The notes under the pieces were generated by a model. The model was not told where the DNA came from. It saw only the letters and a program-made list of their open reading frames with translations, and made no database searches. From the NCBI RefSeq assembly GCF_024494725.1, contig NZ_JANHDK010000001.1:1364001-1428000 (forward strand): a stretch of 64,000 bases of DNA, written 5' to 3'. The number at the start of each line of letters is the position of its first letter. Position 1 is the stretch's first letter. Source of the DNA: Haloplanus ruber. GTDB lineage: Archaea; Halobacteriota; Halobacteria; Halobacteriales; Haloferacaceae. Positions 11,149 to 34,930 of the stretch are shown one piece after another. The translations under genes and the position numbers were made by a program.

Positions 11149-11149
11149 A

Positions 11150-11986
11150 TCAGATCAGGGTGATCGTGTTCGCTTGGCTATCAATTCCGTCGTACGGTGG
11201 CACGCCTCCGAGTCCAACGGCCCCGGCGTCACCGTACTCGACGACCTCGATTTCGCCGTCGCGGACGAGTTCGAACAGAATTCTGGCGAGTCCTTCGGGG
11301 ATGTTCCCGTCAGATGTCGATTCGACGTACAGGAGGTGCTCTCGGAGCCATCGGAGATACTCTTCTACTTCGATTCCTGGGCCACCATCGACGTCGATAC
11401 CGCGGTCGTGGGTAGCCAATTCTAGTGAGGTTCGCACCAACTCCGGATCTGGATAGACGGTGTGTTCGCGTCCTCGAACCTTGTGTACCAACCCGAGGAA
11501 GTGAACGAGCCGTGTCCAGTTCGCGAACTTGTTGTCGTTGTGTTCGATGCGCCCCTGTTGAGACTGCGGTAGATACCCGAGTTCGTTGAACCATTCGTCG
11601 ATATCGGTGTAGAGCCTCTCTTCGTTGTTTTCGAAGAACTGGATGTCGTTTCGCAGTAGGTAGCTGTAGTTCAGTAGTACGACGGCTTGTTTCCCCCACG
11701 ATCCAGGTTGACATTCCTGTGCGAGACCGTGAAGTGCCGTGAGTTTGAAATTCAGCTCGTCGTTGCCGACGTCCCACTGGAATGGCTTCGTGTAGTACTC
11801 TCCCTCTTCCTTGCCAATCATCCGGAGAAGACGTAGTCCGCCGAGAGCGGCGTCTAATCCAGAGTCGATGCCGGTATCCGTCTTGATCGCGTCCTTCGTA
11901 CAGTTCCCATCGTCGACGGAACGATAGATCGGGAGGAGGGGTCCCGGAGTCTGAACTGTGTTGAGAATGTAACCTTCACTACTCAT
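11150..11986 (-). CDS. DpdG-like winged-helix protein
   Basis: The 278-residue protein begins with a helical segment followed by a short domain resembling a winged helix (about 25-65, where the LGGLRLLRMIGKE stretch could be the recognition part). A helical middle carries the NWTRLVHFLGLVH segment near 155-167. There is no enzymatic motif. Its ATG overlaps the stop of the upstream 310-residue gene by 4 nt, and its stop is 1 nt before the ATPase start. Length, the helix-turn-helix-like start and position directly before a large ATPase match DpdG. A role as DNA-binding adaptor of the restriction complex is inferred. Confidence 0.65.
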   Translation of the reverse strand: MSSEGYILNTVQTPGPLLPIYRSVDDGNCTKDAIKTDTGIDSGLDAALGGLRLLRMIGKEEGEYYTKPFQWDVGNDELNFKLTALHGLAQECQPGSWGKQAVVLLNYSYLLRNDIQFFENNEERLYTDIDEWFNELGYLPQSQQGRIEHNDNKFANWTRLVHFLGLVHKVRGREHTVYPDPELVRTSLELATHDRGIDVDGGPGIEVEEYLRWLREHLLYVESTSDGNIPEGLARILFELVRDGEIEVVEYGDAGAVGLGGVPPYDGIDSQANTITLI

Positions 11987-12915
11987 AGGAACTCCTCTTC
12001 CAACCAGGAACGGTATCGCTTATGAATTGAGGACTCATCGGGGTTGATACTTTTCGCCTCTTGCCGCGCTTCATGAACTTTGGGACTCCGGGGAACGTAC
12101 GAGGGATCGAACGTTTTCCCCTCTTCCCCGACAGCCCTATTGAGCGACTGCGCGATATCGCGAGCTGTTTTGCGATCCCACTCGACACGTCTCCGTAGCC
12201 AGCGTTCCAAGCCCTCCACATCATCTTCGCTCAGGGGGACGGTTCCAAATTCATCTTCGCGTCCGAATATCTGGCCGAATACACTATAGAGGGGCAGATA
12301 CGGCGCGTCCGGGAGTACGTCGAATAACTCCTCGGTCGTCTCGATTGATTGGCCGGTCACGAATGCGTAGATATTCGCGTTGTCGTGGAGGAAGATGTTC
12401 ATCGTATCCAAGAGCGGGAATCCCCAACCAGCGTTCTCGTATATCGACTCGAATCCGTTGTACAGGCGTTGGTAGGAACCGACAGCCTCGACGAACTGTT
12501 CTTGATATAGCGGGCGTTGTCCTCCCCGAGGAGTGAATCGCTTGGAATCAGTAACGATGAGAAGCGTTTCCGGAACGGACGAGTACCGGCTAACTAGGTG
12601 ATCGACCGAGTATTGTGTCTCCGACTCGTAATACTCGTTAGAGATGACGACAAGATCGTCATCGAACGCTTCCTCTTCGATTTGGCCGAGAACCTTGTAT
12701 TCGTACTCGAGGTAGTCGTACTGCTGTGAATACGACTGGAACTGTCCACCCGTATTGAGGGTGCGCCAAGACGTCGGATAGGTGAACGTCTCGAAGCCAA
12801 GATAGTGAATGGCCGGAAGCGACCTGAGGAGCCACCAGTACGTCTCGTCGACATCGTCGTGAATAACTGCGACGTCGGCGTTGCGTAGCCGTTTGAAGGT
12901 CGCCGGTTCGTCCAT
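11983..12915 (-). CDS. Hypothetical protein of the helicase operon
   Basis: The 310-residue protein is not recognised. The first about 150 residues alternate hydrophobic strands and helices (VAVIHDD near 14-20, DLVVISNEYYE near 87-97, LLIVTDS near 117-123), like a Rossmann-type or receiver-type fold. The last about 80 residues are charged and helical and end in WLEEEFL. There is no HKD (phospholipase D) motif, so it is not a DpdK/DrmC equivalent. The start codon shares one base with the stop of the helicase gene (TGATG), and the end overlaps the DpdG-like gene by 4 nt. It is therefore co-translated with the helicase and probably forms part of the same complex. Confidence 0.7.
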   Translation of the reverse strand: MDEPATFKRLRNADVAVIHDDVDETYWWLLRSLPAIHYLGFETFTYPTSWRTLNTGGQFQSYSQQYDYLEYEYKVLGQIEEEAFDDDLVVISNEYYESETQYSVDHLVSRYSSVPETLLIVTDSKRFTPRGGQRPLYQEQFVEAVGSYQRLYNGFESIYENAGWGFPLLDTMNIFLHDNANIYAFVTGQSIETTEELFDVLPDAPYLPLYSVFGQIFGREDEFGTVPLSEDDVEGLERWLRRRVEWDRKTARDIAQSLNRAVGEEGKTFDPSYVPRSPKVHEARQEAKSINPDESSIHKRYRSWLEEEFL

Positions 12916-15900
12916 CAGTGGGACTCAGCTCCGATAATCTCTCCAAGTGTCCGGTTGTCTAGGAGGTCGTTTTCGAGATAGTACGCGGGCGTTCGCGAAA
13001 GTAGGAGGCACTCGTCACAGTAGTCGTCACATCGGTCACAGGCCGCAATCTCGGCGACACGAGATTCGATATCGTCTATAGCGTTCCAGACTTGCCAGGC
13101 GATTCCGTTACCTCCCTGCCGACTGTCGACAATACGGACAACCACCTCTGTTTCCTCCTTATTCGCCTTCACACGGAAGTCGGAGCGATCACACTGCGCC
13201 ACGACAGCAATCGCCTTATCCAGCGCCTGCTCCAAGCTGACCAGCGCCTGTGGCCACGAGGCCGTCTCGTGGGTCAATCGATCGAAGCGGTTTCGAACAT
13301 CGTCAAAATCGAACCGGAGAGTGATTCCCTGAGTGTGATACTGTTGTCCCACAGGAGCGTACTCCTCGGTATCCGCATCTTCCAGCCGCTCCTGCCACGA
13401 ACGTCCGCTGTCCTCGGTCGTGGAATCTTGTTCGATTAGTGCTTCGGAGCGTAGAACTTCTTTGTCGGGACTGGCCGAATGGCGACGTTCGAAGGCGAAG
13501 ATGAAGTCGGTTATCTCGAGTTCGCCGTAGCTCGCATCGCAACTGAGACCGAATACGGAGCGTGAGGACGTGTTCTGGGGTCTTGCTGAATTCTCGGACG
13601 TAATTGACGTCGCCATAAGTCCGTGGGTGTTGTACATCCGCTGCCCCCCTTTCGCAGGCTTACACTCAACTGAACTCACACCGTGAACGTTCGTCTCTTC
13701 GAGACTTTCGTCACAGTGGGGGCACTGCGCGGCGTCATGAGAGTAGCTTTCGAATGGGCGGTCGCAGTCTTCGTTGACACAGACCATGACCGTCGCCAGC
13801 GGTGTCGACGATCCGTGGACATCGTCGACGATGTAGTCCGTCCCGTGGAGGGTGATGACGGAACCAAGGTCGTTTTCCGGGCCAGGATACATATCGTAGA
13901 GTCGGCCGGATGCTTCGAATTCGATACCCTCACTGTGCCCCTGAAATTTCACGGGGAATTGCTGTCCGAAACTTCGATAGTTCGCCAGATAGCCGAGTCG
14001 AGAGAGCCACTGGTCGAGTCGGTTGTTGTTCTCGGTGAACGCCTTGTTCGTCTCCGCAGATCCCGACAGGGCGGTGATGCGAGAGAATGTCTTTTCGACG
14101 CGGTTCGACACCGACAGTGGCCCATCTTCCACGAACGCTTGCTCGAACGCGTCCACACCGGGCTGACCGAAGACAGACTCGATGTGGCGCTCCAAGGCAT
14201 CGCGACGCTCGTCGAGGAGGAAATCGACGAGAATTCCCAAATTTTCCTCCACTCCGTTCACGAACGCCCCGAGGTTCTGATTGATTTCGGTGAGTTGGTA
14301 CATCCGCTCGAATATATTTGATGGGTGGGGATTTCGAGCCAGATATGCAAAGGTTTCCGTAACGACGTGGCCGGTGAGGATTTCGTCGAATTCGTACGGA
14401 TCAGGAACTCGAACTGGTTCGAACTCGTTGAGGAACGTTTCGAGATTTCCGTAATAATGGCCGTCAACGGGATGCTCTCCTCGAATCGCGGTTAGCACCA
14501 GCGAGGAACTTCCACGTGTTCGTCCGGTTCGACCACTACGCTGGACGTAATTCGTTAGTGTCGGCGGAATACCCACTTGTGAGACAGTATCCAGCGTACC
14601 GATGTCGACACCGAGTTCCATCGTCGGAGTTGAACTAACAATGTTCACGTCGGGGTCGTCCTTACGGAATCCTTCTTCAATAGCACCACGAAGGGTGTGG
14701 GGAATATTCCCTTTATGAATTCCCACGGAAATGAACTCGGGAGAGTTCCCATTCCTGATCGGAGTCGTAATATCGTGGGCCCAGTGGTCGATCGCATAAG
14801 GCCATCCAGAGTCAGCTTGTGCGTATCCCGGATCAACGGCGAGTGATCCGTCGTCTTCTCTCGTGAATCGACGATGGGTTTCGAGTGGATGTCCACAGTT
14901 GGGACACGTATCGATCGCATCGTCTTCAGGAACAGGATAGGAACGGTAACAATCCGTACAGAAGGCTGTCCGTTCAAGCAACGTCAGATTGGAATCGTCT
15001 CGACGAAGTACACGTGTGAGGATGCCACTTTCTGCATCCGATTCGGAGTCGACAGCGTCGGCATATTCGTCACGGACGCGTTCGAGGTAGTCGAACGTTG
15101 CTTGTTTCTTTTCGTCGCTGATCGACGCGTTCGCTACCGTCTGTCTGACCTCCTCCCAAGACTGCTCGACGACGATCGATTGATTCAGTAGCCGTTGCAA
15201 AACTTTCGGTACGACTGACCCGACATCACCGCGGTCATATCCGGATCGCTTCGCAACACGGTTGATGATTTTCGGGAGCGACAGCCCCTCGATACTGATA
15301 TTGTTTTTACTGAATCCAACGCCCGGATCCGTTGCAAACAGCTTGTACGTCTCGTGTGCGATGACGATCTCTCTGGGGTCGTCGAACTCCGAAACCGGAG
15401 CGGCCGTGACGAGGGCACTGTCAAGGAGACCGGTGGCGTTGTGTAGCATCGCGTGGCCCTCAATATCGTCAAGGAGCGTTCGAAGGAAGTTGTAGGCCGT
15501 GCCGTCTTCGTCGATTTCGTTCTGAATCAGTGGCTCCCAGTACTCCTCTCGAAGACGATCCGCCACAGTTCGGAACAGTTCGTAATTGTCACGCGAGCCA
15601 CCGCTGTCGATCAGCTCTTCGATGTAGAGTGTCTGGGCCATCAGGCCGTACTCTGTTCCGATGATCCGGTCACCAACCGACTCTGCGGCGCTATGTGAAT
15701 CCGAGAAGACGAGCGTCTTCTTCGATGGAGAAGTACGGCATATCTCCGTTAGCATGTACGACAGCAAACTCGAAGTGGGTACCCCGATGTCAGAGAGGTT
15801 AGGCCACTGTTCACAACCGGGACAGGAGTCGACGGACTCAGCGTGATCGAACGGGCGGAATGTGTCCTCATCACCACTGACCTTCACTTCCACGTAGGGG

Positions 15901-17645
15901 TAGTGACACCGCTTGCAAAACTGGAGTTCGAGGTTCTCCGTGTTACAGGAAATACACCGTTTATCTCGGGTGACTTCACTGCACGCCTCGCACAGATACG
16001 CTCTGTGTGGCGGCTTGAGGAAGACGTGATATTTCTCCGTGATCATCCCAGCAAGTCGACCGAAAGCCATCACCGTACCCAGAACTCCTTCTGGATTTTC
16101 GACACCCGTCTCGGAGAGTTGTGTGAGAAGTTCGTCGTAGTGCTTGAATCCGACTTCCCCTGTCGTTCCTTCGTTGAACCACTGCGCGAATTCGGCAACC
16201 TCAGGAACCGAGTCGACGACGAAGTCGAACCACTCGCTGTATAGTCCACCGGCATCTAGGATTGCTTCGGAGAGCCGGTCATGGCCTCGGGGTGATTCGG
16301 CTACCGCACGCGGTGATTCGAACTCGCCTTCCGAAATGAGCGTCTGCGTTTCACTTCGGATGGGTGCTCGAATCCACTCAGCGTCAACCGAGAGCACTAT
16401 CTCTCCACTTGATTCCACTTCGACGAGCCCAACCTCGCTTGCTGTTTCGAATGCGTCTTCCAGTTCTTGCTCTCTCAGATCCGAAACCGTGACCCCACCC
16501 ACTCGTGCGAGCGCGATAACAGCCGCAAGGCCAGTTACATCCGTAGCTGTGAATCGGTTAAACCGAGGACGCCCGTTAACCGGAAATTCGCGGGGTGTGA
16601 ATCCGATTGAATTGATGTCGGATTCCGGCGTACCGGTGAGTTTGTGAGCGAGTTCGGTCGGATTATCGACCGTTGCCGAAACCATCGAAATCTGTGGATC
16701 GCGATCACCGTAAAACTCCTTGAGTCGTTCGGAGAGAAGACGAATTGACGCTCCAGAAATGCCGCTCCAGACGTGCGCTTCGTCGAAAACGATGTGCTCG
16801 ACGGGATGTTGTGCTGGATTTTCGCCAAGGATTTCGCGAGTCTCCGAATTGTTACTCACGAACATGTGGTCCAAAGCTTCGGGGTTCGTGAGGAGGATAT
16901 CAGCACCGTTCCGAATGGCGTCCCGCGTTACTCTGATCCACGAATACCGATTATCGTCGGTACCGACTGTCATATCCCCGAGTATGCGTAGCTTCTCGCC
17001 TTCCTCTCGTGGACACTCAAGGCCCCGAATATAGGAACCCTCCTCGATCTCGTGCTCTCTGGTACCGATACGAGTCGGTGTGTCGGAGTCCCAGATTCCG
17101 ATTGTGATTCGGTCTTCGGGTTCTCGATACCGATTAATTCGGTCAAGATACGAAATGAACCGGTTGAGTTGATCGACACCGAGCGTTTTCATCGGATACA
17201 CAATAAGTGACTTCAGACCCGACTCTTCGGTAGAGAGACAATGATTCAAAATCGGGAAAAAGAACGCCTCTGTCTTCCCTGTCGCCGTTGGGACGGCGAG
17301 GATGTTGTCATCCGAATCGGCTGAAATGGCCTCAATTGTCTGTGCCTGATGCTCGTATAATGATCCAGTTTCGTTTCCGTCGAATAGTTCGTCAACGATC
17401 GCCTCGACTAGTTCGTCGCGGTACCCGAGATCAGCCAGAAAGTCGGCAGCAGGTTGCTCGTAGAACTTCGGTGCATCGACAAATTCGACGTACGGCCCCT
17501 TCTGCTCCACGATTTCGTTCTGGACGAACGAGGTAGCGGCTTCGTCATCGACCACATGGTTAAGCCGCGTCATCTGTCGATTCCACCAAGTAATCTCCGA
17601 CGCTCTGTCGACCGCAGCTTCGAGGGTTCGTTGTGGGGAGTGCAT
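12915..17645 (-). CDS. DEAD/DEAH-box helicase with C-terminal DUF1998, DruE/DrmB/MrfA-like
   Basis: The 1576-residue protein has Walker A PTATGKT at 119-125, DEAH at 288-291, SAT at 323-325 and motif VI QRSGRTGR in the second lobe. Several zinc-ribbon CxxC pairs follow: CEAC/CISC/CKRC/CPGC in the 560-640 region, then CTDC/CPNC and CPHC. The end carries a DUF1998-type domain with CDRC...CDEC. This layout is that of the YprA/MrfA family and of large helicases in defence systems (DrmB, DruE). It opens the five-gene minus-strand operon and is probably the motor of the restriction arm. It is longer than typical MrfA proteins (about 750 residues). Its own promoter (TATA on the minus strand at 17,687-17,693) lies in the 57-nt gap from the upstream gene. 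Confidence 0.85.
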   Translation of the reverse strand: MHSPQRTLEAAVDRASEITWWNRQMTRLNHVVDDEAATSFVQNEIVEQKGPYVEFVDAPKFYEQPAADFLADLGYRDELVEAIVDELFDGNETGSLYEHQAQTIEAISADSDDNILAVPTATGKTEAFFFPILNHCLSTEESGLKSLIVYPMKTLGVDQLNRFISYLDRINRYREPEDRITIGIWDSDTPTRIGTREHEIEEGSYIRGLECPREEGEKLRILGDMTVGTDDNRYSWIRVTRDAIRNGADILLTNPEALDHMFVSNNSETREILGENPAQHPVEHIVFDEAHVWSGISGASIRLLSERLKEFYGDRDPQISMVSATVDNPTELAHKLTGTPESDINSIGFTPREFPVNGRPRFNRFTATDVTGLAAVIALARVGGVTVSDLREQELEDAFETASEVGLVEVESSGEIVLSVDAEWIRAPIRSETQTLISEGEFESPRAVAESPRGHDRLSEAILDAGGLYSEWFDFVVDSVPEVAEFAQWFNEGTTGEVGFKHYDELLTQLSETGVENPEGVLGTVMAFGRLAGMITEKYHVFLKPPHRAYLCEACSEVTRDKRCISCNTENLELQFCKRCHYPYVEVKVSGDEDTFRPFDHAESVDSCPGCEQWPNLSDIGVPTSSLLSYMLTEICRTSPSKKTLVFSDSHSAAESVGDRIIGTEYGLMAQTLYIEELIDSGGSRDNYELFRTVADRLREEYWEPLIQNEIDEDGTAYNFLRTLLDDIEGHAMLHNATGLLDSALVTAAPVSEFDDPREIVIAHETYKLFATDPGVGFSKNNISIEGLSLPKIINRVAKRSGYDRGDVGSVVPKVLQRLLNQSIVVEQSWEEVRQTVANASISDEKKQATFDYLERVRDEYADAVDSESDAESGILTRVLRRDDSNLTLLERTAFCTDCYRSYPVPEDDAIDTCPNCGHPLETHRRFTREDDGSLAVDPGYAQADSGWPYAIDHWAHDITTPIRNGNSPEFISVGIHKGNIPHTLRGAIEEGFRKDDPDVNIVSSTPTMELGVDIGTLDTVSQVGIPPTLTNYVQRSGRTGRTRGSSSLVLTAIRGEHPVDGHYYGNLETFLNEFEPVRVPDPYEFDEILTGHVVTETFAYLARNPHPSNIFERMYQLTEINQNLGAFVNGVEENLGILVDFLLDERRDALERHIESVFGQPGVDAFEQAFVEDGPLSVSNRVEKTFSRITALSGSAETNKAFTENNNRLDQWLSRLGYLANYRSFGQQFPVKFQGHSEGIEFEASGRLYDMYPGPENDLGSVITLHGTDYIVDDVHGSSTPLATVMVCVNEDCDRPFESYSHDAAQCPHCDESLEETNVHGVSSVECKPAKGGQRMYNTHGLMATSITSENSARPQNTSSRSVFGLSCDASYGELEITDFIFAFERRHSASPDKEVLRSEALIEQDSTTEDSGRSWQERLEDADTEEYAPVGQQYHTQGITLRFDFDDVRNRFDRLTHETASWPQALVSLEQALDKAIAVVAQCDRSDFRVKANKEETEVVVRIVDSRQGGNGIAWQVWNAIDDIESRVAEIAACDRCDDYCDECLLLSRTPAYYLENDLLDNRTLGEIIGAESH

Positions 17646-20861: not shown

Positions 20862-21723
20862 CGGTAACTACGGAGCCCAACACATTCGATGTAACTCGTT
20901 CACTGTGCCTCTGTTTCCTCTACTGGCACGGCATATCATATAAGTTGAGCCTACCACGGGGCGAGAAGTGACATTTAGATGTCGAGAGAGGTCTTCCAAG
21001 ATTGGTACGTGGATCGGACTTATTTCGAACCAACTCATCAATGTGTGATTCGTATTGGATATAGTGAGCAATCCGGAGAGATGCCTCCTGGTCGATTCCG
21101 AACCATTACTCTACTGTACATGGTACAATCTTGTCGGGTGATTGTCTCCTCATATCTGCTATTTTCCCTTAATTGCTGCCTCGAGCGCAGGATCGCAGAA
21201 TCTTGTGAATGTGTGCTCCATCGTGATGTTCAACGCACCGGCAACTATCCATGACTCGGCGGTGTCGGAGGAATCGAGGAGCGGGAGGCCCCTTCGGCCA
21301 TCTCTTTGACAGGGTAGTGTTCGTAGTCATCACGTTCGACTTGGCCGAGAAATCTCGAGTACAACCGCACCGATGGCGGCTTCGAATCCGCCGGAGGTGT
21401 CTCGATTCTCCGAAGAAGTATCGTCACCGGTGGGTCCAACAGCTTTCGGGAAGGCGTCCACGTACCGGTCGATTAGTATCAACTCTGATCTCGTACGTGT
21501 GAATATTTATCATGATTCTAAGTCACGGGGAGAGGCTCTCCGATATAAATCGACAATTCCGATGCCAATTCTCTCTGACGAGACTGGACCTCTCGAGTGA
21601 CGGAGATAGCGCTGGATTCTCTCATCGGCACCGAAATATAAGATGGAGGTAGTTGCGGCTTCACTCGCCTGCGGCGGCATGACTTGGGAAAGCTTCAAGC
21701 CGGTGTGGTCTCAACGGCAGGGT
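20862..21723. other. Long divergent non-coding region between restriction and modification genes
   Basis: No gene is convincing here. The region separates the minus-strand PH/HNH-repeat gene from the plus-strand modification genes and should hold both promoters. A TATA-like AAATATAAG lies near 21,632-21,640, and a minus-strand TTATATGATATG lies near 20,933-20,944. A GC-richer patch at 21,245-21,439 could be a gene fragment on the minus strand, but I cannot identify it. Confidence 0.4.
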
Positions 21724-22200
21724 ATGTCGATGTTGCTGGTGCAAGGGTGTTCTAAATCGAAAAATCAGCCGGAGGAGGCCATGTCGGCGCTGAATCTGTA
21801 CACTGGATACTTCTTCAAAATTATCAAGAAAGCGATGAGAGAGGATGCGTTCGACGACCGGGTCGACGTGTGTATTCTCTCTGCTGAACACGGGATTATC
21901 GACCCCGATGCTGAGATCACGTGGTACGATCGAAGAATGGATGCCGACCGTGCAGCGGAACTCGCTCCCAAAGTACGAGAAGATCTTCGTGAAAGGATCA
22001 CCGGCGACTACGATCGCGTCATTATCAATGTTGGGAGCGTTTACCGGCGGGCAATCGAAGGTGTTGACTCGTCAGTAGACGCCGACATACACTATATCGA
22101 AGGAGAAGGGATTGGTGTCAAGGGCCATATTCTCAAGCGTGTTGTACGAGGCGAAGTAGAAGCTGTATTTCAGACAGCCGAAGCGGCAGGTGGCTGTTGA
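21724..22200 (+). CDS. YaaA/DUF6884-like protein, first gene of the TGT operon
   Basis: From ATG 21,724 the protein has 158 residues; in-frame ATGs at 21,679 and 21,643 are possible, but the conserved part begins at once with MLLVQGCSKSK. The GCSxSK start, LSAEHGII near residue 60 and the strand VIINVGS are features of the YaaA/DUF6884 fold, which also underlies the catalytic core domain of archaeosine synthase. The full PCX3KPY signature is absent: the cysteine and first lysine remain, but KPY does not. The stop shares one base with the start of the transglycosylase (TGATG). It probably works with that enzyme, either on the inserted base or as a specificity subunit. A DpdC-like role is conceivable but not shown. 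Confidence 0.7.
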   Translation: MSMLLVQGCSKSKNQPEEAMSALNLYTGYFFKIIKKAMREDAFDDRVDVCILSAEHGIIDPDAEITWYDRRMDADRAAELAPKVREDLRERITGDYDRVIINVGSVYRRAIEGVDSSVDADIHYIEGEGIGVKGHILKRVVRGEVEAVFQTAEAAGGC

Positions 22201-23441
22201 TGGCGAAGGCACGTTCTACGGGCACATTCCGCTTCGAAGTGAAGGAAAGAGCGGGAGATGCTCGAACTGGAGAACTATTCGTCAAGGACACGCAACTTTC
22301 CACCCCGAATCTATTTCCAGTTATCAACTTCTACGCCGGGGGGATGGAACGGAGCGTCTACGGTGGTGGTGTACACCGAACAATAAAGGAGCTGATGATT
22401 GGTGCAGATCGGGTCGGTATCGGCCCCCTCTCAGAGTATTTCGACGCGACGATGATGTCCGTCTCTTCACTCACCGATTACAATATCTCACGCGAGCGCT
22501 ACGAAGATTACCTTGCCGCACCGATCAAAGAGCGTGATCTTTTCGAGCCGTTCGATGGTCTCCTCTTCACGGATTCGGGTGGTTTCAAATTCTTGAATAA
22601 TGCGGAGATAGACGGAAGCGACTTCGAGGTGGAAATGAATCAAGAAGCGGTGTACGAGATTCAACAGGCGCTAGGTAGCGATATCATCGTCAACCTTGAT
22701 CACCCAATCGCCCCTGACGACACCCACCAAGATCGTGTCGAAAAGGCCGAAAAGACGGCGGCGAACATCCACAAATTCCTCACACTCACTCGGGATTTTG
22801 ACGGCGCACAGTATCTCACCCTGCACGGGTACAATTACTCGATGATGGACGAGTTCCTCGACGTCATTACTGATCGCGTTCCTGCCGGTGTTCTCCGGGA
22901 AGGTTTTGACGGGATCGCCCTTGGAAGCCTCGTACCCAAGAAAGACGACCGTGGTGCGCTGATCCAAGCCGTCACCGACTGTCGCGAGGTGATGGTCGAG
23001 TGGGGGATGGAAGATTGGCCGCTACATGTTCTCGGAATCTCCAGCCGGGCAATCCCTCTGCTGGCCGGTCTCGGGGCAGATACATTTGACTCGAGCACTC
23101 ACCTTCACAATGCCATCAACAGGAAGTACCAGCAATCGTTGATGGAAACCATATCGATAGATGAAGTGGATTTCAGTGAGTGTGACTGTCCGGTTTGCCA
23201 GTCCGACTTGCTCGTACAGCGAATGAAGGGAGACGCCAAGTATCAGAAGGACATTCTCGGGCCAGTCGCGATGCATAACCTGATCATCCAAAAGCGGGAA
23301 TTAGCGGAAATTCGACAACGGATTCGACAGGACGGAACGAAGGCCTTAGTCGAATACTTCGAGAAGACGTTCAGTAGAGATAAGACGATGCGGCGATTCG
23401 CCCATCAAGTAGTCAATCAGTCTCTCGGAGGATATTTCTAA
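22200..23441 (+). CDS. DpdA-like 7-deazaguanine DNA transglycosylase (TGT family)
   Basis: The 413-residue protein from ATG 22,200 is a queuine/archaeosine tRNA-ribosyltransferase fold. The DSGGF substrate loop has D125 (TDSGGFK, 124-130). The GIALGSLVP strand (238-246) corresponds to the base-binding GG loop. The second aspartate is in GADTFDS (D297), and a zinc site is formed by C328, C330, C333 and H359. Both catalytic aspartates appear intact. It lacks the PUA domain that archaeal tRNA TGTs use to bind tRNA, and its neighbours are defence genes, so DNA is the likely substrate, as in DpdA. It probably exchanges guanine for preQ0. It is coupled to the DUF6884 gene upstream and the GHKL ATPase downstream by 1-nt overlaps. 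Confidence 0.85.
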   Translation: MAKARSTGTFRFEVKERAGDARTGELFVKDTQLSTPNLFPVINFYAGGMERSVYGGGVHRTIKELMIGADRVGIGPLSEYFDATMMSVSSLTDYNISRERYEDYLAAPIKERDLFEPFDGLLFTDSGGFKFLNNAEIDGSDFEVEMNQEAVYEIQQALGSDIIVNLDHPIAPDDTHQDRVEKAEKTAANIHKFLTLTRDFDGAQYLTLHGYNYSMMDEFLDVITDRVPAGVLREGFDGIALGSLVPKKDDRGALIQAVTDCREVMVEWGMEDWPLHVLGISSRAIPLLAGLGADTFDSSTHLHNAINRKYQQSLMETISIDEVDFSECDCPVCQSDLLVQRMKGDAKYQKDILGPVAMHNLIIQKRELAEIRQRIRQDGTKALVEYFEKTFSRDKTMRRFAHQVVNQSLGGYF

Positions 23442-24997
23442 TGAAAAAGTCACCCAAGGTCAACGAGGTCAACGAATTTCTGGAAATCGCGAGCGACTTC
23501 GAAGATCCCCTCGAAGTTCTCCGCGAATCGCTGTCTAACGCATACGACGCAGGAGCGACTGAAGTCGATATCACGATACGCAGTCGTCCCAACGGCTCCG
23601 ACATCGTAATCGAAGACGATGGTCACGGGATGAACGAGCGCGATATAGAGTCGTTTTTCGATCTCGGGAATTCGCGGAAGACGGACTCGATCGGATACAA
23701 AGGCCACGGAACGAAAATCTTCTACAAAAGCGATCGGATTGAAGTCACCACGGTCCATGATGGAACGAGCTATCGGGCGGTAATGGACGATCCGTGGCGG
23801 AAGCTCAATCGGAAAGAACTCCCCGAGTACGAGATGACGGCTGAATCGGTTCGCCGCGGGAATCCCGGAACCAAGATCAAAATCACCAACTTCCGCTCCG
23901 GCCACGGATTCGACGCCGAGGAACTCACGTACAACAAGATCCACCATTATCTGAAGTGGAAAACCATCGCTGGATCGACCGCCCATTACTTCGGAGACGA
24001 TCAGCGTGAGATGGAGATTACGGTCAATCTTGACGACGAGATTGACAATACCTGCGACGAGCTAACCACGACGAACAGGCTGGAATTTCCCGACGAACAA
24101 CTTGAGCCAGGCAACAACGAGTACCCCGCTAAACGGATGTGCAAACACTATCCTGCGCGGGAAATCGACATCGAATACGAGAACGGCCAGACGACGCTCC
24201 AAATTGTAGGGATGGTTGGCGGGAAGGATACTCGGAATGAATTACCGACCTACGGCCGCCATTCGGCGCAGTTCGGAATCTGGTTCGCGAAGGATCATAT
24301 CAAGGTCGAACGCCTGAACGAAGCAATCTCTCACGACAACGAGTTCATCCACTTCTTTTTCGTCGCCAACTGCCAAGATATCGAACTCTCCGCGAACCGG
24401 GAAACGATTCGAAACAAGGCCAGTCCTGTGTACCAAGCCCTCGAGCAAGAGGTCGAATACTATCTTTCGAAGGTGACACAGGATCCGTGGTTCAAAGAGT
24501 ACCTGCAAATTCGAAAAGAGGGGGAACACCGACGACGGTCAGCTAGTCAACGCTCGTCGCTCAAAGACCGGCGTGAACGGATCGAATCGGACGGATTTCA
24601 GCCGAGTAACAAAGCTGAGGTGTTACTTGGACTCGAACGAGCAAGCAATCAGAGCGGCTCTCTATCCCTGACTGTCGAAGACTTCGATCCCGAGGCGGAT
24701 GTGCATGCGATCATCCGACAAGATGGAGCGCTCCGGAACGCGGCAGTTCACCCAAACCTCACAGGTCTCTTCGAAGACGAAGTTCCGCTCGAAAACACGG
24801 AGGTTGCCGTGTGTTGGAATCAGGGCGATCCCGCGGAACTGCAGGAGTACGAACGGAACGGCTATTTCGGCGGGGAAGTCTCGATCCAGCTCGACAACGG
24901 TGGGATTCGATATCAGAACGGGGACAGCCACTTCATCGAAGTCATCCAGGTGGAGGATTTACTTCAAACGAAATCCGCGCCACCTGCTGACGATTGA
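23441..24997 (+). CDS. GHKL-family ATPase (Hsp90/MutL/MORC type)
   Basis: The 518-residue protein has the Bergerat-fold motifs: N-box ESLSNAYDAGAT (residues 29-40), G1 DDGHGM (near 59-64) and G2 GYKGHGTK (near 83-90). A transducer-like middle region follows, and the C-terminus is unrecognised. There is no phospho-acceptor histidine or HNH domain, so it resembles MORC/MutL-type clamps rather than a sensor kinase. A GGAGGA ribosome-binding site at 23,427-23,432 precedes the ATG, which shares one base with the stop of the transglycosylase. Bacterial DpdA needs the ATPase DpdB; no DpdB is present here, so this ATPase may replace it as the energy-coupling or DNA-clamping partner. That replacement is my inference. 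Confidence 0.8.
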   Translation: MKKSPKVNEVNEFLEIASDFEDPLEVLRESLSNAYDAGATEVDITIRSRPNGSDIVIEDDGHGMNERDIESFFDLGNSRKTDSIGYKGHGTKIFYKSDRIEVTTVHDGTSYRAVMDDPWRKLNRKELPEYEMTAESVRRGNPGTKIKITNFRSGHGFDAEELTYNKIHHYLKWKTIAGSTAHYFGDDQREMEITVNLDDEIDNTCDELTTTNRLEFPDEQLEPGNNEYPAKRMCKHYPAREIDIEYENGQTTLQIVGMVGGKDTRNELPTYGRHSAQFGIWFAKDHIKVERLNEAISHDNEFIHFFFVANCQDIELSANRETIRNKASPVYQALEQEVEYYLSKVTQDPWFKEYLQIRKEGEHRRRSASQRSSLKDRRERIESDGFQPSNKAEVLLGLERASNQSGSLSLTVEDFDPEADVHAIIRQDGALRNAAVHPNLTGLFEDEVPLENTEVAVCWNQGDPAELQEYERNGYFGGEVSIQLDNGGIRYQNGDSHFIEVIQVEDLLQTKSAPPADD

Positions 24998-25023: not shown

Positions 25024-27030
25024 CTACTTGCTGTCACGGGAGGGGACTGTCCGCTCGTCAAGATGGTCGAGTAACTCTTGGATATTGCTGTTACGGAAGT
25101 ACTCGGTGAGCTGGAGCGCCTGCGGATCCCGCGGGAGGACGGTTCCCTGACCGTACGCATCAAAGGCGTCTTCAACGACCTGTCGGTAGGTCTTGCTCGT
25201 CACGTAGGCGACGATTTCGTCGAATTGATCACCGTACTCCTCCAGATAGCGGAGTACGCGATCGGTCACAAGTGTGATCTGATCATTGTCCTCCTTCGCG
25301 AGAACGTAGTCATATTCCAAGACCGGCTGTTCTCGCTCGAATTCTTTTGGGACAGGTCCGTACATGCCCGAGACGGTTAGCTTATGAATTCGGCTCGTTC
25401 GGTCGCCCAGCTTATCGAACAGGACGGAGTGTGTGCGGGATTCCGAGTATGGTTTCTTTTGACTACACGGGATCAACAGGAGAACATCTTTGTCCGCTGG
25501 CGGCTCGTGAGAACGAGTGAAGATATTGAAATCGTTTGGGCTATACTTGAGTGAGATCCGTCGGTTGTTAGTCGATTCGTCGACACCGGCGTCCCACTGG
25601 GATAGCTTCGCCTGATCGCTGGTGAGAGTTGAGCCTGGGAGAAGATCGTACGCTTCCCGTGCCTCGATATCTTGGCGGAGTCTCTTGTCGCGTAGTTGGG
25701 CCTCTTTGAGACCCTTCTTGATATCGTCGTGGTCGCGTGCGAAGTCGATGACGTAGTCCAGAAGTCGCCCATCCTGAATCGCTTCACGGACGTGTCTGAG
25801 TTCTTCATTGTAAAGCTCGAAATTGTGACGAGCCAATAGCGCGTAGTAGTCGCTCTTGATTGGCTCTCCGTTCTCTTTGCGCTCTTGGCGTTCGTCGTAG
25901 CTGAGATCAGTATTCAGTTCTTCTAGTAGGGTTTCATAGTCAATGCCGTCGTCACCGCACAGCGTACACTCGGGGAGGTCACAGGGAAAGCTCCCATCCG
26001 GCCGGAGATGTTCCTCAAGTTCTTCGAGCTTGTAGTGTGACCACGTCTCCGGGTGAGTGTACTTCTTGTATCGTGCAGTCTGCATATGCGTTGAACAATC
26101 GAACGAGTCGACACCGAGAAGAGAGAGCAGACCGACCTGTTTCCCTCCGACACCGAAGACGTGGAGGCCGATTTCGTCGGAGTGTGCCTCTGGGATTGCG
26201 TCTTTCGCTCCTTGGACAATATCCACAAGAACGTCGATACTGCTTCGTAATGGAACTAGCGAGCCGATAGCGAATCCTTCGAATGAACTTTCGATATTGA
26301 CTTCTTCAACGCGATCAAGGAAATTCCCGACATACCAGTTGATTGTCTCGTAGTCATGGCCGTGAAGGGCGATATAGACTCCCGGCTCTTCGCCAGCGGC
26401 TTTTTGTGCCCGAAGCCGATCAGCGGCACGGCTGTTAATATCGAAATTCTCCTCTAGGAGTGACGGGTCATCGAGAATGCGGAGACATTCGACAGCACTG
26501 TCGATGCTCTTGTTCATCCGTTCGACAGTCTCGTCATCTCGAAGGTTCGGCGGAATGGGGTAGTCCAACGTTGCGACGATGTCCGCCCCGAAATCGAGCT
26601 GCAGACCGAGGATACTCTTCGGATCGGTATAGAGTCCCCATTCGTTGGGGACGCCACCTTTCTCGGGGGCGTCACCAAACGTGTTCGAATTCATCAGCTT
26701 GAATCCTCCCGAGTCGATGAAGATGGGTGCGTTCAGATCCTCAAAGCGTTCGTGAAACGTTTCAGTTCGCCAGAAGTCGTTTAGGTTGTCTGGAGAGACG
26801 CCATAGTCGGTGAAACTCATCGCCTGAAACATTATTCCTTGAAGGTGATCCTTCGAAATGAGCTTGTCCCGCATCCGACGCCACACGCCTCCGGATTTCT
26901 CCGTAGTACCGCCGATCAGGTTGACGACAGGAAAGAGAACAGGTGTTTCGACAGGGCCGTGAGGAACGTCAAGTTCCCCGAGTCGACCATAGCCATCGTC
27001 TCCGACGAGTTTCACGCTGAACGATGCCAT
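25024..27030 (-). CDS. DpdA-like transglycosylase fused to ArcS-type DUF5591 domain
   Basis: In the 668-residue protein, residues 1-420 are a TGT fold with D106 in FIDSGGFK, strand GFAIGSLVP (252-260), D311 in GVDSFDCSTH and a zinc site C350/C355/C358/H402. Residues about 512-640 are an ArcS-like domain with the full archaeosine-synthase signature PCX3KPYX2SX2H: P521, C522, K526, P527, Y528, S531, H534. GMYGPVPKEFE follows near 555-565. In tRNA ArcS this motif joins lysine to preQ0, and the TGT half of ArcS is catalytically dead; here both halves look intact. No PUA domain is visible. It may insert preQ0 into DNA and convert it to a lysine adduct, with a radical SAM enzyme such as host RaSEA needed to reach archaeosine. 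It converges with the GHKL gene, 26 nt apart. Confidence 0.8.
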   Translation of the reverse strand: MASFSVKLVGDDGYGRLGELDVPHGPVETPVLFPVVNLIGGTTEKSGGVWRRMRDKLISKDHLQGIMFQAMSFTDYGVSPDNLNDFWRTETFHERFEDLNAPIFIDSGGFKLMNSNTFGDAPEKGGVPNEWGLYTDPKSILGLQLDFGADIVATLDYPIPPNLRDDETVERMNKSIDSAVECLRILDDPSLLEENFDINSRAADRLRAQKAAGEEPGVYIALHGHDYETINWYVGNFLDRVEEVNIESSFEGFAIGSLVPLRSSIDVLVDIVQGAKDAIPEAHSDEIGLHVFGVGGKQVGLLSLLGVDSFDCSTHMQTARYKKYTHPETWSHYKLEELEEHLRPDGSFPCDLPECTLCGDDGIDYETLLEELNTDLSYDERQERKENGEPIKSDYYALLARHNFELYNEELRHVREAIQDGRLLDYVIDFARDHDDIKKGLKEAQLRDKRLRQDIEAREAYDLLPGSTLTSDQAKLSQWDAGVDESTNNRRISLKYSPNDFNIFTRSHEPPADKDVLLLIPCSQKKPYSESRTHSVLFDKLGDRTSRIHKLTVSGMYGPVPKEFEREQPVLEYDYVLAKEDNDQITLVTDRVLRYLEEYGDQFDEIVAYVTSKTYRQVVEDAFDAYGQGTVLPRDPQALQLTEYFRNSNIQELLDHLDERTVPSRDSK

Positions 27031-28200: not shown

Positions 28201-28659
28201 ATGTCTGAGAGAATACCTGGATCATATTCTGGAAGCATACTTACCGACGCTGGTGAACGAACACTCCATATCGGAGATGACCATCCGATACGGATTAGTG
28301 CCGGGCATCGGATTCAACACCACGAGGGGAAGTGCAGCCGACCCCATGGGCACAACTACGAAGTCTCCGTCTCACTAACTGGAGAGCTCACGGAAGCGGG
28401 CTGGGTCGTCGACAAAGGTGACGTAACTACGGTCATCAACGAGTGGGATCACCGATTTTTACTTGAAGAGGGCGACCCACTCATCGATGCCTTCGAACAG
28501 TCGAACGATCGTGATGCTGTCGTCATTCTCGACTACCCGCCGACAGCGGAAGTAATGAGCGTCATCCTCGAAGAGCGTCTCCAAAACGAACTACCTGATA
28601 CTGTCTCCGATGTCTCCGTCCAAGTGGCAGAAACAGGTGAACTCTGCTCCGGGTACTGA
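28201..28659 (+). CDS. queD: QueD-like 6-carboxy-5,6,7,8-tetrahydropterin synthase
   Basis: The 152-residue protein belongs to the PTPS/QueD family. The zinc histidines are in SAGHRIQHHEG (His near 38) and the CSRPHGHNYEV segment. The CX3HGH arrangement supplies the catalytic cysteine and two zinc ligands typical of QueD. The C-terminal CSGY end and the ETGELCS segment also fit the family. It turns 7,8-dihydroneopterin triphosphate (the FolE product) into CPH4, the second preQ0 step. It is the first gene of queD-queE-folE-queC, 3 nt before queE, and is expressed from its own leaderless promoter. In this context it feeds the DNA transglycosylases. Confidence 0.92.
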   Translation: MSERIPGSYSGSILTDAGERTLHIGDDHPIRISAGHRIQHHEGKCSRPHGHNYEVSVSLTGELTEAGWVVDKGDVTTVINEWDHRFLLEEGDPLIDAFEQSNDRDAVVILDYPPTAEVMSVILEERLQNELPDTVSDVSVQVAETGELCSGY

Positions 28660-28662
28660 TCT

Positions 28663-29439
28663 ATGCCAGTCAACGCAGAATCCCATCCCGAAAGCGGAGA
28701 TCATGATATCGATGGCGACGCTCTCCCCATCAACGAAGTTTTCTACTCTCTTCAGGGCGAAGGAAAACTTGCCGGAACGCCGTCGGTATTCATCAGAACG
28801 AGTGGTTGCAATCTCCGGTGTTGGTTCTGTGACTCATACCATACATCTTGGAAGCCGACCCACTCGTGGATGTCGATAGAGGATATCATCGACGAAGTCC
28901 GTACCTTCGATGAGGCAGACCATGTTGTCCTCACCGGCGGTGAGCCCCTAATCCACGAAGAGAGTGTCAAGCTGCTCGACGAACTCGCCGATTACGGCTA
29001 TCACACGACAGTCGAAACGAACGGCACAATCTATCGCGATACGGCAATTGATCTTGCAAGTATCAGTCCGAAACTTCGGAGTAGCACGCCGACTACCGAA
29101 CGCGACCCAGACGGCGAGGGAGAGTGGGCTAACCGTCATGACAGCCGGCGAATTAATCTGGATGCACTCAGACAACTCGTTACGAATTACGAGAGCCAGC
29201 TAAAGTTCGTCATCACGGGTGCCGACGACTTCGAGGAGATTACCGATCTTGTGGAACGCGTTCGAAACCAGACTCAGATAGCTGTACCTGATGACGATGT
29301 GCTACTCATGCCGGAAGGAAGAACACGCGATGAACTCGCCGACACGCGTACTACTGTCGCCGAATTAGCGATGGATCACGGTTATCGATACACACCTCGA
29401 CTACACGTCGACCTCTGGAACGATGCCTCAGGTACCTGA
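28663..29439 (+). CDS. queE: 7-carboxy-7-deazaguanine synthase QueE (radical SAM)
   Basis: The 258-residue protein opens its core with NEVFYSLQGEG, the QueE signature. The radical-SAM cluster motif is CNLRCWFC (CX3CX2C), followed by the SAM-binding LTGGEPL segment. It converts CPH4 to 7-carboxy-7-deazaguanine, the third preQ0 step. It is not RaSEA (the archaeosine-synthase partner), since the length and the SLQGEG start are those of QueE. It lies 3 nt after queD and 2 nt before folE, so all are co-transcribed. Confidence 0.93.
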   Translation: MPVNAESHPESGDHDIDGDALPINEVFYSLQGEGKLAGTPSVFIRTSGCNLRCWFCDSYHTSWKPTHSWMSIEDIIDEVRTFDEADHVVLTGGEPLIHEESVKLLDELADYGYHTTVETNGTIYRDTAIDLASISPKLRSSTPTTERDPDGEGEWANRHDSRRINLDALRQLVTNYESQLKFVITGADDFEEITDLVERVRNQTQIAVPDDDVLLMPEGRTRDELADTRTTVAELAMDHGYRYTPRLHVDLWNDASGT

Positions 29440-29441
29440 TC

Positions 29442-30074
29442 ATGGCAAATGAAGACACCCACCTCATAGAGACGAATCGTAGCTCCGATTCCAAGAACGG
29501 AGAATCGACAGCGATCGACCACGAGAAGGCTCAGCGAGGAGTACGACTTCTTCTGGAGGCGGTGGGCGAAAATCCTGATCGGACGGAACTCACGGAGACG
29601 TGGAAGCGTCGAGTTCCGGACGTACTAGAGACGTTTAGTGAGGGTGAGCGTCTCGAGGACAAACCAACCATGCGAACATTCGATGCGGATTCGGATGGGC
29701 TAATCGTCAAGACCGGTGTACCCGTGTACAGTCTTTGTGAACACCATCTGCTCCCGTATCACGGGAAAGCCCACGTCGCTTATCGACCCGAAGATCAAGT
29801 CGTCGGCCTCTCGAAACTTCCGCGATACGTTCGATGGCAGTCACGCCGGCTGACGATGCAAGAGCAGTTGACTCGTGATATCGCGGATGGCCTCGCTGAC
29901 GAAATTGGTGCGGAAGCGGTGTTGGTAGAGATCACGGCCACCCACATGTGTGAAGCCATGCGCGGCGTCGAGACAGCGACAGCGACAACGACTCGGGCGA
30001 CAGTCGGGTCTCCGACGGATACGGAACAGCGGCGCTTCAGAGACGCGATTCAGCGAGCGGAGGATTCAACATGA
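29442..30074 (+). CDS. folE: GTP cyclohydrolase I
   Basis: The 210-residue protein is a type I enzyme. The zinc ligands are in CEHHLLPYHG (Cys and His, near residue 97) and THMCEAMRG (second Cys). GLSKLPRYV and RLTMQEQLT are further family motifs. It hydrolyses GTP to dihydroneopterin triphosphate, the entry to preQ0. The first about 35 residues are a variable acidic extension. Many haloarchaea use the unrelated MptA for this step, so a FolE here suggests the island brings its own complete supply line. It overlaps the queC start by 4 nt. Confidence 0.93.
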   Translation: MANEDTHLIETNRSSDSKNGESTAIDHEKAQRGVRLLLEAVGENPDRTELTETWKRRVPDVLETFSEGERLEDKPTMRTFDADSDGLIVKTGVPVYSLCEHHLLPYHGKAHVAYRPEDQVVGLSKLPRYVRWQSRRLTMQEQLTRDIADGLADEIGAEAVLVEITATHMCEAMRGVETATATTTRATVGSPTDTEQRRFRDAIQRAEDST

Positions 30075-30769
30075 ACACCGAAGAGAAACGGGCAGTAGTA
30101 CTAGTCTCCGGCGGGATGGATAGTGCGACGGCTGTTGCTGAGGCACGCGACCGTGGCTACGAACCGTACTTTTTCCACACCTCCTATGGCCAGCAGACCG
30201 AGGATAGAGAACTCGAGTGTGCCCGACAGCTAGCCGATGATTTCGATGCAGCGGACTTTCTCCACGTCGAAACTGAGCATCTAGCGCGGATCGGTGCATC
30301 CTCCCTAACGGACGACGAGATGGATGTCGCTGAAGCCGATCTCGAGAGCGACGAAATCCCGTCCTCGTACGTCCCGTTCCGGAACGCAAACCTCCTGTCG
30401 ATGGCTGTGTCGTACGCTGAAGCGAACGACTGCACTGCCGTCTTCATGGGTGCACACTCAGAGGACTTCTCCGGATATCCTGACTGTCGGCCGGAGTTCT
30501 TCGAAGCGTTCCAGCACGTCGTCGACGTTGGGACGAAGCCGGAGACGACGATCAGTATTGAAGCACCGTTCACCGAATGGTCGAAGACGGATATCGTGGA
30601 ACGGGGACTCAAACTCGATGTCCCGTTCGAACACACGTGGTCGTGCTACCGAGAATCCGAGCCAGCCTGTGGTACGTGTGACGCGTGTGCCTTCCGTCTT
30701 CAGGCGTTCCAACGGGCCGGTGTCGAGGATCCGATTGGATACGCTGAGCGGCCGAGTTACGTGGAGTAA
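30071..30769 (+). CDS. queC: 7-cyano-7-deazaguanine synthase QueC
   Basis: The 232-residue protein has the PP-loop SGGMDSAT (residues 13-20) for ATP, and a C-terminal zinc site in the segment CYRESEPACGTCDAC, with four cysteines as in QueC. It converts 7-carboxy-7-deazaguanine to preQ0 using ATP and ammonia. No Gat-like amidotransferase domain is fused, so the product is preQ0 itself. It is the last gene of the four-gene operon. The product would be used by the two transglycosylases at 22-27 kb. Confidence 0.93.
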   Translation: MNTEEKRAVVLVSGGMDSATAVAEARDRGYEPYFFHTSYGQQTEDRELECARQLADDFDAADFLHVETEHLARIGASSLTDDEMDVAEADLESDEIPSSYVPFRNANLLSMAVSYAEANDCTAVFMGAHSEDFSGYPDCRPEFFEAFQHVVDVGTKPETTISIEAPFTEWSKTDIVERGLKLDVPFEHTWSCYRESEPACGTCDACAFRLQAFQRAGVEDPIGYAERPSYVE

Positions 30770-32085: not shown

Positions 32086-32721
32086 ATGAATACGCACATC
32101 ACGTTCGTTCTCGACTCCTCGGGATCAATGTCCACTATCGAAGACGATACCAAGGGCGGATTCAACGCATTCCTGAAAGACCAGCGAGACGAGGAGGGAT
32201 CGGCGACAGTCACACTCTACGACTTCAATACGAATGTCGATCTCGTCTACCACGGATATTCGATCGAAGACGCACCCAAACTCGACGACGAAAACTACAC
32301 TCCTGGCGGGAAAACGGCGCTACACGATGCTCTCTATACGGCAGTCGCGGAAACAGCAGAGCGAGTTTCTAAACAGGAGTCAGCGAACCGCCCCGACAAC
32401 GTGATTATCGTCGTGTTGACTGACGGCAAAGAGAACGCATCAGAGACTCATCAGGAGCGTGTGCGTGAACAAGTCGAGTATCGGCGCAAAGAGTTCGATT
32501 GGGAGTTCCTCTTCATTGGTGCCAATCAAGATGCTGCACTCACAGCCGCTAGCATGGGGATGGACGAAGAGCGGTCGCTGAACATGTCTCACAGCGGAGA
32601 AGGGACAAGAGCTGCGTACGAGTCGACATCGGATCGAGTCACCCAAGCACGACAGGAAGGAACGACAGGCACGTACAAGGAGGAAGACCGGAAGAAACAG
32701 CGAGACGCGCAGGATTCGTAA
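32086..32721 (+). CDS. VWA-domain protein
   Basis: The 211-residue protein is one von Willebrand factor A domain. The metal-ion-dependent adhesion site is DSSGS at residues 10-14, with a threonine in PGGKTAL near residue 80 and VVLTDGKENAS near 107-117. It has no membrane segment or signal, so it is cytoplasmic. The last about 60 residues are charged. Such proteins act as metal-dependent adaptors, often with an AAA ATPase. Its neighbours are the HNH gene and, convergently 24 nt away, the Qng1-like glycosylase. Confidence 0.8.
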   Translation: MNTHITFVLDSSGSMSTIEDDTKGGFNAFLKDQRDEEGSATVTLYDFNTNVDLVYHGYSIEDAPKLDDENYTPGGKTALHDALYTAVAETAERVSKQESANRPDNVIIVVLTDGKENASETHQERVREQVEYRRKEFDWEFLFIGANQDAALTAASMGMDEERSLNMSHSGEGTRAAYESTSDRVTQARQEGTTGTYKEEDRKKQRDAQDS

Positions 32722-32745: not shown

Positions 32746-33780
32746 TCAATACGCCGTCGTTCGTGTGATATGGATGGTTCCGTCTATCTCGTCGCGCATT
32801 TGGAAGAGTTTGTAATCTAGATGGGGTGCGTAGACAGAAGAGTCTCGGCAGTCCATGAGTTTCTCAATGAGTTCGTCACCCGCATGGACGGTTGCCGCCC
32901 GCAGTTCGACTTCTTCTCGGCTTCCCGCTTCAATCATCGTTCGGGAATCGACTAATTCGGCGAGGTGATCTGAATACTCAAGCACGCCTAATTCACGAAG
33001 GACGTTGGGCAGATTGTAATCGACGAATAGCGTGAATGCACCAGGATCTTCGACTCGAAAGCACTCCTGATTTTGAAAACGACCGTAAGCCATTCCAGCC
33101 GCAAGTTGAGCGCGTTTCCAGAACGCGACTTCAAGTGCAGATCCATCAGCGAGGGTTACAGCGCTGGAATCATCGAATGAGGGCAAGTGAGTAACTAATC
33201 GATCTACAATACCATTTCCGTCGGCGTATAGGCACGGTTCCGCAGAATCGATGAGGTTTGCGAATCGACCGTCGTACTGATTGGAGAGGTTCTCGCCGAC
33301 TTGCGTGAGAATTTGATGACGTTCCTCGAGCATCGGAATCTCGTCACCGTCAGCAGGCTCGAACAGTCGTTCTACGTCAGAGAGGGACAAGTCGGAAAGC
33401 GTGTCGCCGCGTAGGATAGCAGGGTTATCATCGAATTCGCGGCGCAAGCAGGCCCACATAGCGAACGCGCCGCTCCACTCGGTTCCTGCATAGGTAGCGG
33501 TGAACTTGTCACCGGTGTCGTAATCGCGGAACTGAAAATTGATCGTATTGCCAAGAAACAGAAAATCTATAATATCCCTTTCAGAGACGCCCGAAGAATT
33601 CTCGTCGGGGAACACCGGAGCCCGCCACTCCGGGAGTGAGAATTCGTCTGCGGCTAGCCGTTCGGAGAGAAGTTCGATTGCTCCCTCTTGGATGTCCACG
33701 AACCTAAGCTCCGGAACTAGCGTTTGCACGCTCTCCCTGACGAGAGTCGTCGGGAGAGCTTGATTACCGGATGTACCCAT
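32746..33780 (-). CDS. Qng1/DUF2419-like queuosine-nucleotide N-glycosylase homologue
   Basis: The 344-residue protein matches the queuosine salvage protein family (human QNG1/C9orf64) across its length. The order of motifs is GNTINFQF (77-84), WSGAFAMWACL (102-112), PMLEERHQIL (149-158), FWKRAQL (220-226), FTLFVDYNLPNVL (249-261), LGVLEYSD (264-271) and REEVELRA (288-295). Known members cleave queuosine 5'-monophosphate to free queuine. Archaea are not known to make queuosine, so here the natural target may be another 7-deazaguanine nucleotide, such as those released from modified DNA, giving base back to the transglycosylases. A role on DNA is possible but speculative. Substrate unproven. 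Confidence 0.8.
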   Translation of the reverse strand: MGTSGNQALPTTLVRESVQTLVPELRFVDIQEGAIELLSERLAADEFSLPEWRAPVFPDENSSGVSERDIIDFLFLGNTINFQFRDYDTGDKFTATYAGTEWSGAFAMWACLRREFDDNPAILRGDTLSDLSLSDVERLFEPADGDEIPMLEERHQILTQVGENLSNQYDGRFANLIDSAEPCLYADGNGIVDRLVTHLPSFDDSSAVTLADGSALEVAFWKRAQLAAGMAYGRFQNQECFRVEDPGAFTLFVDYNLPNVLRELGVLEYSDHLAELVDSRTMIEAGSREEVELRAATVHAGDELIEKLMDCRDSSVYAPHLDYKLFQMRDEIDGTIHITRTTAY

Positions 33781-34888: not shown

Positions 34889-34930
34889 CCTCTCACGGCA
34901 ATGACCAGGGTTCGAATCCCTGTCGGAGCA
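34889..34930 (+). pseudogene. tRNA 3'-half remnant (tRNA-Glu-like), probable att site
   Basis: The segment holds an intact T-arm CAGGG-TTCGAAT-CCCTG (34,906-34,922), then TCGGAGC and A, an acceptor 3' strand with discriminator. Upstream, CCTCTC and ATGACC match the anticodon loop (CTC) and variable region of haloarchaeal tRNA-Glu, but the anticodon stem is broken and there is no 5' half. AT-rich island DNA is on the left and GC-rich core DNA on the right. This is what remains at the far junction when an element integrates into a tRNA 3' end. The intact tRNA should then be to the left of this window. Confidence 0.65.

Follow-up and report, generated by a model that had tools for sequence, protein, structure and literature searches.

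Qng1 is known from humans, where it is the enzyme that allows the tRNA base queuine to be recycled. The solved homologues bind queuosine-5'-monophosphate (Q-5'-MP), as judged from the titles of their PDB entries. A transporter encoded next to qng1 in Acidobacteriota carries preQ0/preQ1, not Q (PMC11130926), which hints at non-Q roles within the family. For DPANN archaea, which live as symbionts or parasites, a Q pathway with Tgt has been published (PMC8204110), and haloviruses with 7-deazaguanine DNA exist (PMC8651126, PMC6884629). Two kinds of system connected with tRNA-guanine transglycosylase (TGT) family proteins are relevant here, namely the Dpd system (DpdA-K) and the BRC (BREX-related capture) systems. 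For the latter, a TGT-based DNA marking has been proposed by the authors of their description (PMC12839542).

We analysed a stretch of 64,000 nucleotides from Haloplanus ruber (contig NZ_JANHDK010000001.1, positions 1,364,001 to 1,428,000), hereafter called the window. It encodes a 344-residue DUF2419 protein that has the Pfam family, the full-length fold and the catalytic residue pair in common with Qng1 (S. thermophilus 7u07/7u91, human 7ugk). In contrast to the characterised enzymes, it falls outside their clade, carries Met at the position of Asp207, and is located in a DNA-modification island. In the reading that we favour, with an estimated probability of about 0.5, the protein acts in the cytosol as an N-glycosidase with the DUF2419 fold, cleaves 7-deazaguanine 5'-mononucleotides and does not serve tRNA queuosine salvage.

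Fold, active site and relatives of the DUF2419 protein

Residues 67-335 of the window protein match PF10343 (Q_salvage) with an E-value of 3.7e-54 and 184.7 bits, which is above the curated cut-off of 25. With phmmer, Sphaerobacter thermophilus Qng1 (7uk3/7u07) was matched over residues 19-340 (E 3e-33) and human QNG1 (7ugk) with E 5e-30. The AlphaFold2 model (pLDDT 88.5, pTM 0.88) superimposes on 7uk3 with a Z-score of 37.4 and an rmsd of 2.0 for 312 aligned residues and thus shows the Qng1 fold. The Lys/Asp active-site pair of Qng1 (K199/D231 in S. thermophilus) is present as K222 and D254. The best reading of sequence and model is a predicted nucleotide N-glycosidase of the Qng1 fold that is not a Qng1 orthologue.

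Relatives were sought in 84,980 named species genomes and were found in metagenome-assembled genomes (MAGs) of Nanoarchaeota and Micrarchaeota; PF10343 lies above the cut-off in 27 of the 279 genomes of the phylum to which locus L055 belongs. The tree took in the two solved Qng1 proteins and DUF2419 proteins from DPANN, Chloroflexota and three haloarchaea. One clade of 18 rows (100/96; Qng1 clade) comprises S. thermophilus Qng1, human QNG1, two Chloroflexota and 14 DPANN proteins. The haloarchaeal proteins lie outside this clade and group together (100/100). All other archaeal rows, including these three, form clade A (91/84). A grouping of the haloarchaeal proteins with the Qng1 clade was not rejected by the AU test (p 0.24). 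Hence, the tree places the haloarchaeal proteins with DPANN clade A at a support of 91/84, with the AU test leaving the alternative. Proteins of DPANN clade A are the nearest non-haloarchaeal relatives (38-40% identity where aligned). A comparison of alignment columns revealed Asp at position 207 in 89% of the Qng1 clade and Met in 82% of DPANN clade A. This exchange, M230 in the window protein, is a candidate for an altered specificity.

An earlier note, made from the DNA letters, had named the protein a Qng1 homologue with matching motifs and length. The family assignment is confirmed by the PF10343 match, the Z-score and the conserved K222/D254. An orthologous relationship is not, since the characterised enzymes lie in a separate clade; a sister position is left by the AU test. 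The note had also stated that archaea use archaeosine, not queuosine. This is not universal, because a Q pathway is described for DPANN archaea and a bacterial-type TGT was seen in many DPANN genomes; those of the Qng1 clade usually have one.

As an alternative, the window protein might perform true queuine salvage and, like Qng1, hydrolyse Q-5'-MP that stems from bacterial tRNA and has been taken up. The common family, fold and active-site pair would agree with this, as would the sister grouping left by the AU test. However, a bacterial-type TGT was not found in the H. ruber genome. Its TGT-family hits are TgtA and ArcS, which are encoded on another contig outside the island, and two island proteins. 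Together with the position outside the 100/96 clade of both characterised enzymes this makes queuine salvage in H. ruber very improbable.

In DPANN, the assumption that DUF2419 is always paired with a TGT was rejected (TGT in 13 of 26 genomes with and 19 of 30 without DUF2419). Such a pairing does hold for the Qng1 clade: a TGT is present in the genomes of 10 of its 14 DPANN rows versus 1 of 11 in clade A (Fisher p 0.004), in a comparison of incomplete MAGs whose rows are not independent. In one DPANN genome (G464, locus L131) the DUF2419 gene (5998-6915) lies directly beside the gene of a bacterial-type TGT (4796-6070), and true queuine salvage in an archaeon is likely there, judging from this gene arrangement.

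The island and its borders

Near 35 kb of the window the GC content rises from ~0.52 to 0.65. A 24-bp exact repeat of the tRNA-Glu(CTC) 3' end is found at C1:1347926, where the tRNA is intact, and at C1:1398907 (window 34907; C1 denotes the contig that carries the window). Since these direct repeats occur on both sides, the DUF2419 gene falls within an island of ~51 kb, close to the right border. Also located there are genes for preQ0 synthesis, two TGT-family proteins and Dpd-like restriction genes (Table 1). The island is mobile, and its genes probably introduce unusual bases into the archaeon's own DNA.

Table 1. Features of the H. ruber window that are relevant to the DUF2419 gene.
Feature	Position in window	Strand	Basis
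DpdJ-like helicase, 1357 aa	28..4101	-	PADLOC DpdJ, E 8e-46
Dpd-like restriction block: 231 aa, DpdH-like 954 aa, 278 aa, 310 aa, 1576-aa helicase	7614..17645	-	profiles, island comparison
DUF6884 protein, 414-aa DpdA-like TGT (22197-23441) and GHKL-type ATPase	21643..24997	+	profiles
TGT-ArcS fusion, 668 aa: TGT domain and ArcS core (DUF5591, PCSxKPYS motif)	25024..27030	-	Pfam, NCBIfam, alignment
preQ0 operon QueD, QueE, FolE, QueC	28201..30769	+	Pfam, NCBIfam
VWA-domain protein, beside DUF2419	32086..32721	+	Pfam
DUF2419/Q_salvage protein, 344 aa, haloarchaeal branch	32746..33780	-	ATG start; PF10343, PDB matches, model, tree
Codon of D254 (D231 of S. thermophilus Qng1; D231N mutant, 7ulc)	33019..33021	-	alignment, codon check, structure title
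Codon of M230 (D207 of Qng1), candidate specificity position	33091..33093	-	column comparison of clades
Codon of K222 (K199 of S. thermophilus Qng1; K199C mutant, 7u5a)	33115..33117	-	alignment, codon check, structure title
Attachment-site repeat, right copy of the tRNA-Glu 3' end	34907..34930	+	exact repeat; left copy ~16 kb left of window start

Like the Dpd system, the island combines preQ0 genes with relatives of DpdA of the TGT type and with proteins resembling DpdH and DpdJ. In contrast to that system, it encodes a TGT-ArcS fusion and the DUF2419 protein, which is no Dpd component, and its matches are distant: besides DpdJ, PADLOC found DpdH with E 1e-13 and DpdA with 4e-5, and the NCBIfam DpdA equivalog scores far below its cut-off. 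No PADLOC profile matched the DUF2419 protein. The catalytic DSGG and FD motifs are intact in both island TGTs (668 aa and 414 aa), according to the alignment. A PUA domain was not called by Pfam in the 668-residue fusion. In view of the ArcS motif and the missing PUA call, the DNA mark would more likely be of the archaeosine type than plain preQ0. The domain composition suggests that a single protein makes DNA archaeosine. QueC of the island is the only full-length QueC found in a search of the own genome.

Further observations concern related islands. Of eight further haloarchaeal Dpd-like loci used for comparison, seven have a conserved TGT-ArcS fusion (65-83%), and the trio of DUF6884 protein, 414-aa TGT and GHKL-type ATPase is conserved across haloarchaeal Dpd-like islands. 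A counterpart of the VWA-domain protein, with 63-67% identity, was found close to three of seven other Dpd-like islands; this protein may so far have been missed as a component of the Dpd-like system. A 1052-residue protein (17703-20861) contains several HNH-associated repeats and a helix-hairpin-helix domain, and its relatives in other islands are weakly similar (20-33%). QueC was detected in 3 of 12 genomes of the genus, in each case beside a DNA-type TGT island (L027, L029 and window 28201-30769). When four genomes of the genus were rechecked with the Pfam model, QueC-like matches were partial only; TgtA is present in G289, the one of these four that was checked for TGT.

DUF2419 and DNA-type TGT systems in Halobacteria

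DUF2419 is carried by 3 of 391 Halobacteria: H. ruber, Halogeometricum limi (G157) and a third genome, G123. All three possess a DNA-type TGT system, which is of two unlike kinds (Dpd-like and BRC-like), and in two of them (H. ruber and H. limi) the DUF2419 gene is situated within the TGT island or at its border. G123 has the same Dpd-like operon (TGT-ArcS 65%, helicase 55%, DpdH-like 46-61%) and its DUF2419 gene is located ~1.4 Mb from this locus.

In H. limi the gene borders an island of low GC content, in which a PglZ-like protein, HerA, GNAT, a member of the TGT family and QueF-II are encoded. PglZ, HerA, GNAT and TGT are the gene set that this island shares with BRC, with a weak match for PglZ. 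Neither QueF-II nor DUF2419 is among the BRC components in the accessible part of the description (PMC12839542). Two proteins of 1312 and 1328 residues gave zero Pfam matches at 1e-3 when the BRC domains DUF6079/BrxC-like and DUF4007 were sought. The QueF-II gene lies beside that of the TGT (L005 18459-19895). This arrangement suggests that the H. limi system marks DNA with a base of the preQ1 type rather than the preQ0 type.

Relatives of the 414-aa island TGT are present in 42 of 391 Halobacteria. Taking the Dpd-type TGT alone, the association with DUF2419 has a one-sided Fisher p of 0.03 at this base rate, so that the co-occurrence is suggestive, not strong. Forty of the 42 genomes with a Dpd-type TGT have no DUF2419; hence, these systems work without it. 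Apart from the G123 locus, seven other Dpd-like islands were examined; they have more or fewer of the core genes in common, and a DUF2419 gene is absent from all of them. Both observations show that DUF2419 does not belong to the Dpd core: it is an accessory gene of the Dpd-like system. Moreover, it is not co-transcribed with the modification genes.

With respect to the earlier note, the location of the gene in a 7-deazaguanine DNA-modification island is borne out by FolE, QueD, QueE, QueC, two TGTs, DpdH/DpdJ-like proteins and the tRNA-Glu repeats. The survey it had proposed, for co-occurrence of DUF2419 with DpdA-type proteins in haloarchaeal islands, gave a divided answer. The two do co-occur beyond this genome; the absence of DUF2419 from most genomes with the island TGT and from the other islands shows that it is no core part of the Dpd-like system. 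For an attack on invading DNA, also considered in the note, the sole hint is the DNA-glycosylase-like fold, and no virus-encoded relative was found.

This idea belongs to a reading in which the protein would excise 7-deazaguanines from the DNA of invaders (or of the host) as a DNA glycosylase and thereby serve as an eraser or immune effector. Its fold is common to helix-hairpin-helix DNA glycosylases, and the second-tier matches of the model are AGOG, an 8-oxoguanine DNA glycosylase, at Z 13.1 and endonuclease III at Z 11.7. In addition, haloviruses with 7-deazaguanine DNA are known, and the gene sits in a defence-type island. However, the similarity to these enzymes is far weaker than that to the nucleotide-cleaving Qng1 (Z 37), the island itself should place such bases in host DNA, and the gene is not core to the system. 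The very acidic nature of the protein (pI 4.3) also speaks against this reading, although it is usual in haloarchaea. Of the alternatives discussed here we regard this one as the least probable.

Virus-encoded relatives were found neither in GenBank phages nor in IMG/VR, so a recent viral source of the gene is unsupported. Relatives on plasmids of Variovorax and Azospira are a distant outgroup with no annotated deazaguanine-synthesis genes nearby.

Clade A neighbourhoods and a proposed fate of 7-deazaguanine nucleotides

In contrast to the haloarchaeal genes, those of DPANN clade A have no DNA-modification genes as neighbours, and several lie next to genes of the pentose-phosphate pathway or of nucleotide salvage. 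RpiB and ribulose-phosphate 3-epimerase are encoded directly beside DUF2419 at two loci (L137 and L140), one of which also has a transketolase. In a Micrarchaeota locus (L058), genes for a ribokinase, a HAD protein, a transaldolase and a transketolase face the DUF2419 gene. A dCMP-deaminase-family gene lies just upstream at locus L144, and NUDIX and thymidylate kinase also occur among the neighbours. For the Qng1 clade, no pentose-phosphate enzyme is among the first 25 neighbour families listed. Such neighbourhoods in clade A would be expected of an enzyme that yields ribose-5-phosphate, in accordance with Qng1 chemistry. Since DPANN of clade A mostly lack a TGT, their enzymes cannot serve the re-use of the freed base and may accept a broader range of nucleotides.

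A rival explanation is a nucleotide N-glycosidase whose base specificity is wider or otherwise different, which would act e.g. on ordinary or damaged NMPs and feed ribose-5-phosphate to the pentose-phosphate pathway. The location in the island would then be chance cargo. Such an enzyme would account for the DPANN neighbours, for the missing TGT hit in 10 of 11 DPANN genomes of clade A and for the Met that replaces Asp207 in clade A and in the window protein. Furthermore, the DUF2419 gene lies near an edge in both islands, where unrelated cargo such as HNH collects. On the other hand, all three haloarchaeal cases belong to genomes with a DNA-type TGT, two of them to the TGT island itself, and pentose-phosphate genes were not recognised beside the haloarchaeal DUF2419 genes. 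We consider this explanation unlikely, although it is the most probable of the rivals.

Probably, the haloarchaeal enzyme recycles or clears 7-deazaguanine nucleotides, as its fold and genomic context suggest both for the substrate and for a role in salvage or sanitation. Nucleases would degrade modified host or viral DNA (and tRNA) to preQ0- or archaeosine-type (deoxy)nucleotides, which would be barred from normal salvage and might be misincorporated. The DUF2419 enzyme would hydrolyse the bond between the 7-deazaguanine-type base and the pentose-5-phosphate in the free 5'-mononucleotide. The island TGTs, TgtA or ArcS could then use the released base again, and the (deoxy)ribose-5-phosphate would enter central metabolism. 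Since the island contains the only full-length QueC, recycling of the base would pay, and since preQ0 synthesis depends on the island, it would serve tRNA archaeosine as well.

A more far-reaching proposal would be a separate archaeal DUF2419 subfamily of 7-deazaguanine deoxynucleotide hydrolases/glycosylases that was recruited by DNA-modification immunity, where it guards the nucleotide pool against misincorporation or strips viral deazaguanines. DPANN archaea would use the same subfamily to live on the modified nucleotides of their hosts. In this full form we regard the proposal as speculative and distinctly unlikely.

To our knowledge, there are no studies on the fate of 7-deazaguanine nucleotides after the breakdown of modified DNA. 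This question becomes testable with an enzyme that has the right chemistry and is encoded next to two different DNA-TGT systems. For the family, the archaeal Q_salvage annotation spans at least two clades, one usually with and one usually without a bacterial-type TGT. Presumably, "queuosine salvage" is the wrong label for the second of them, clade A.
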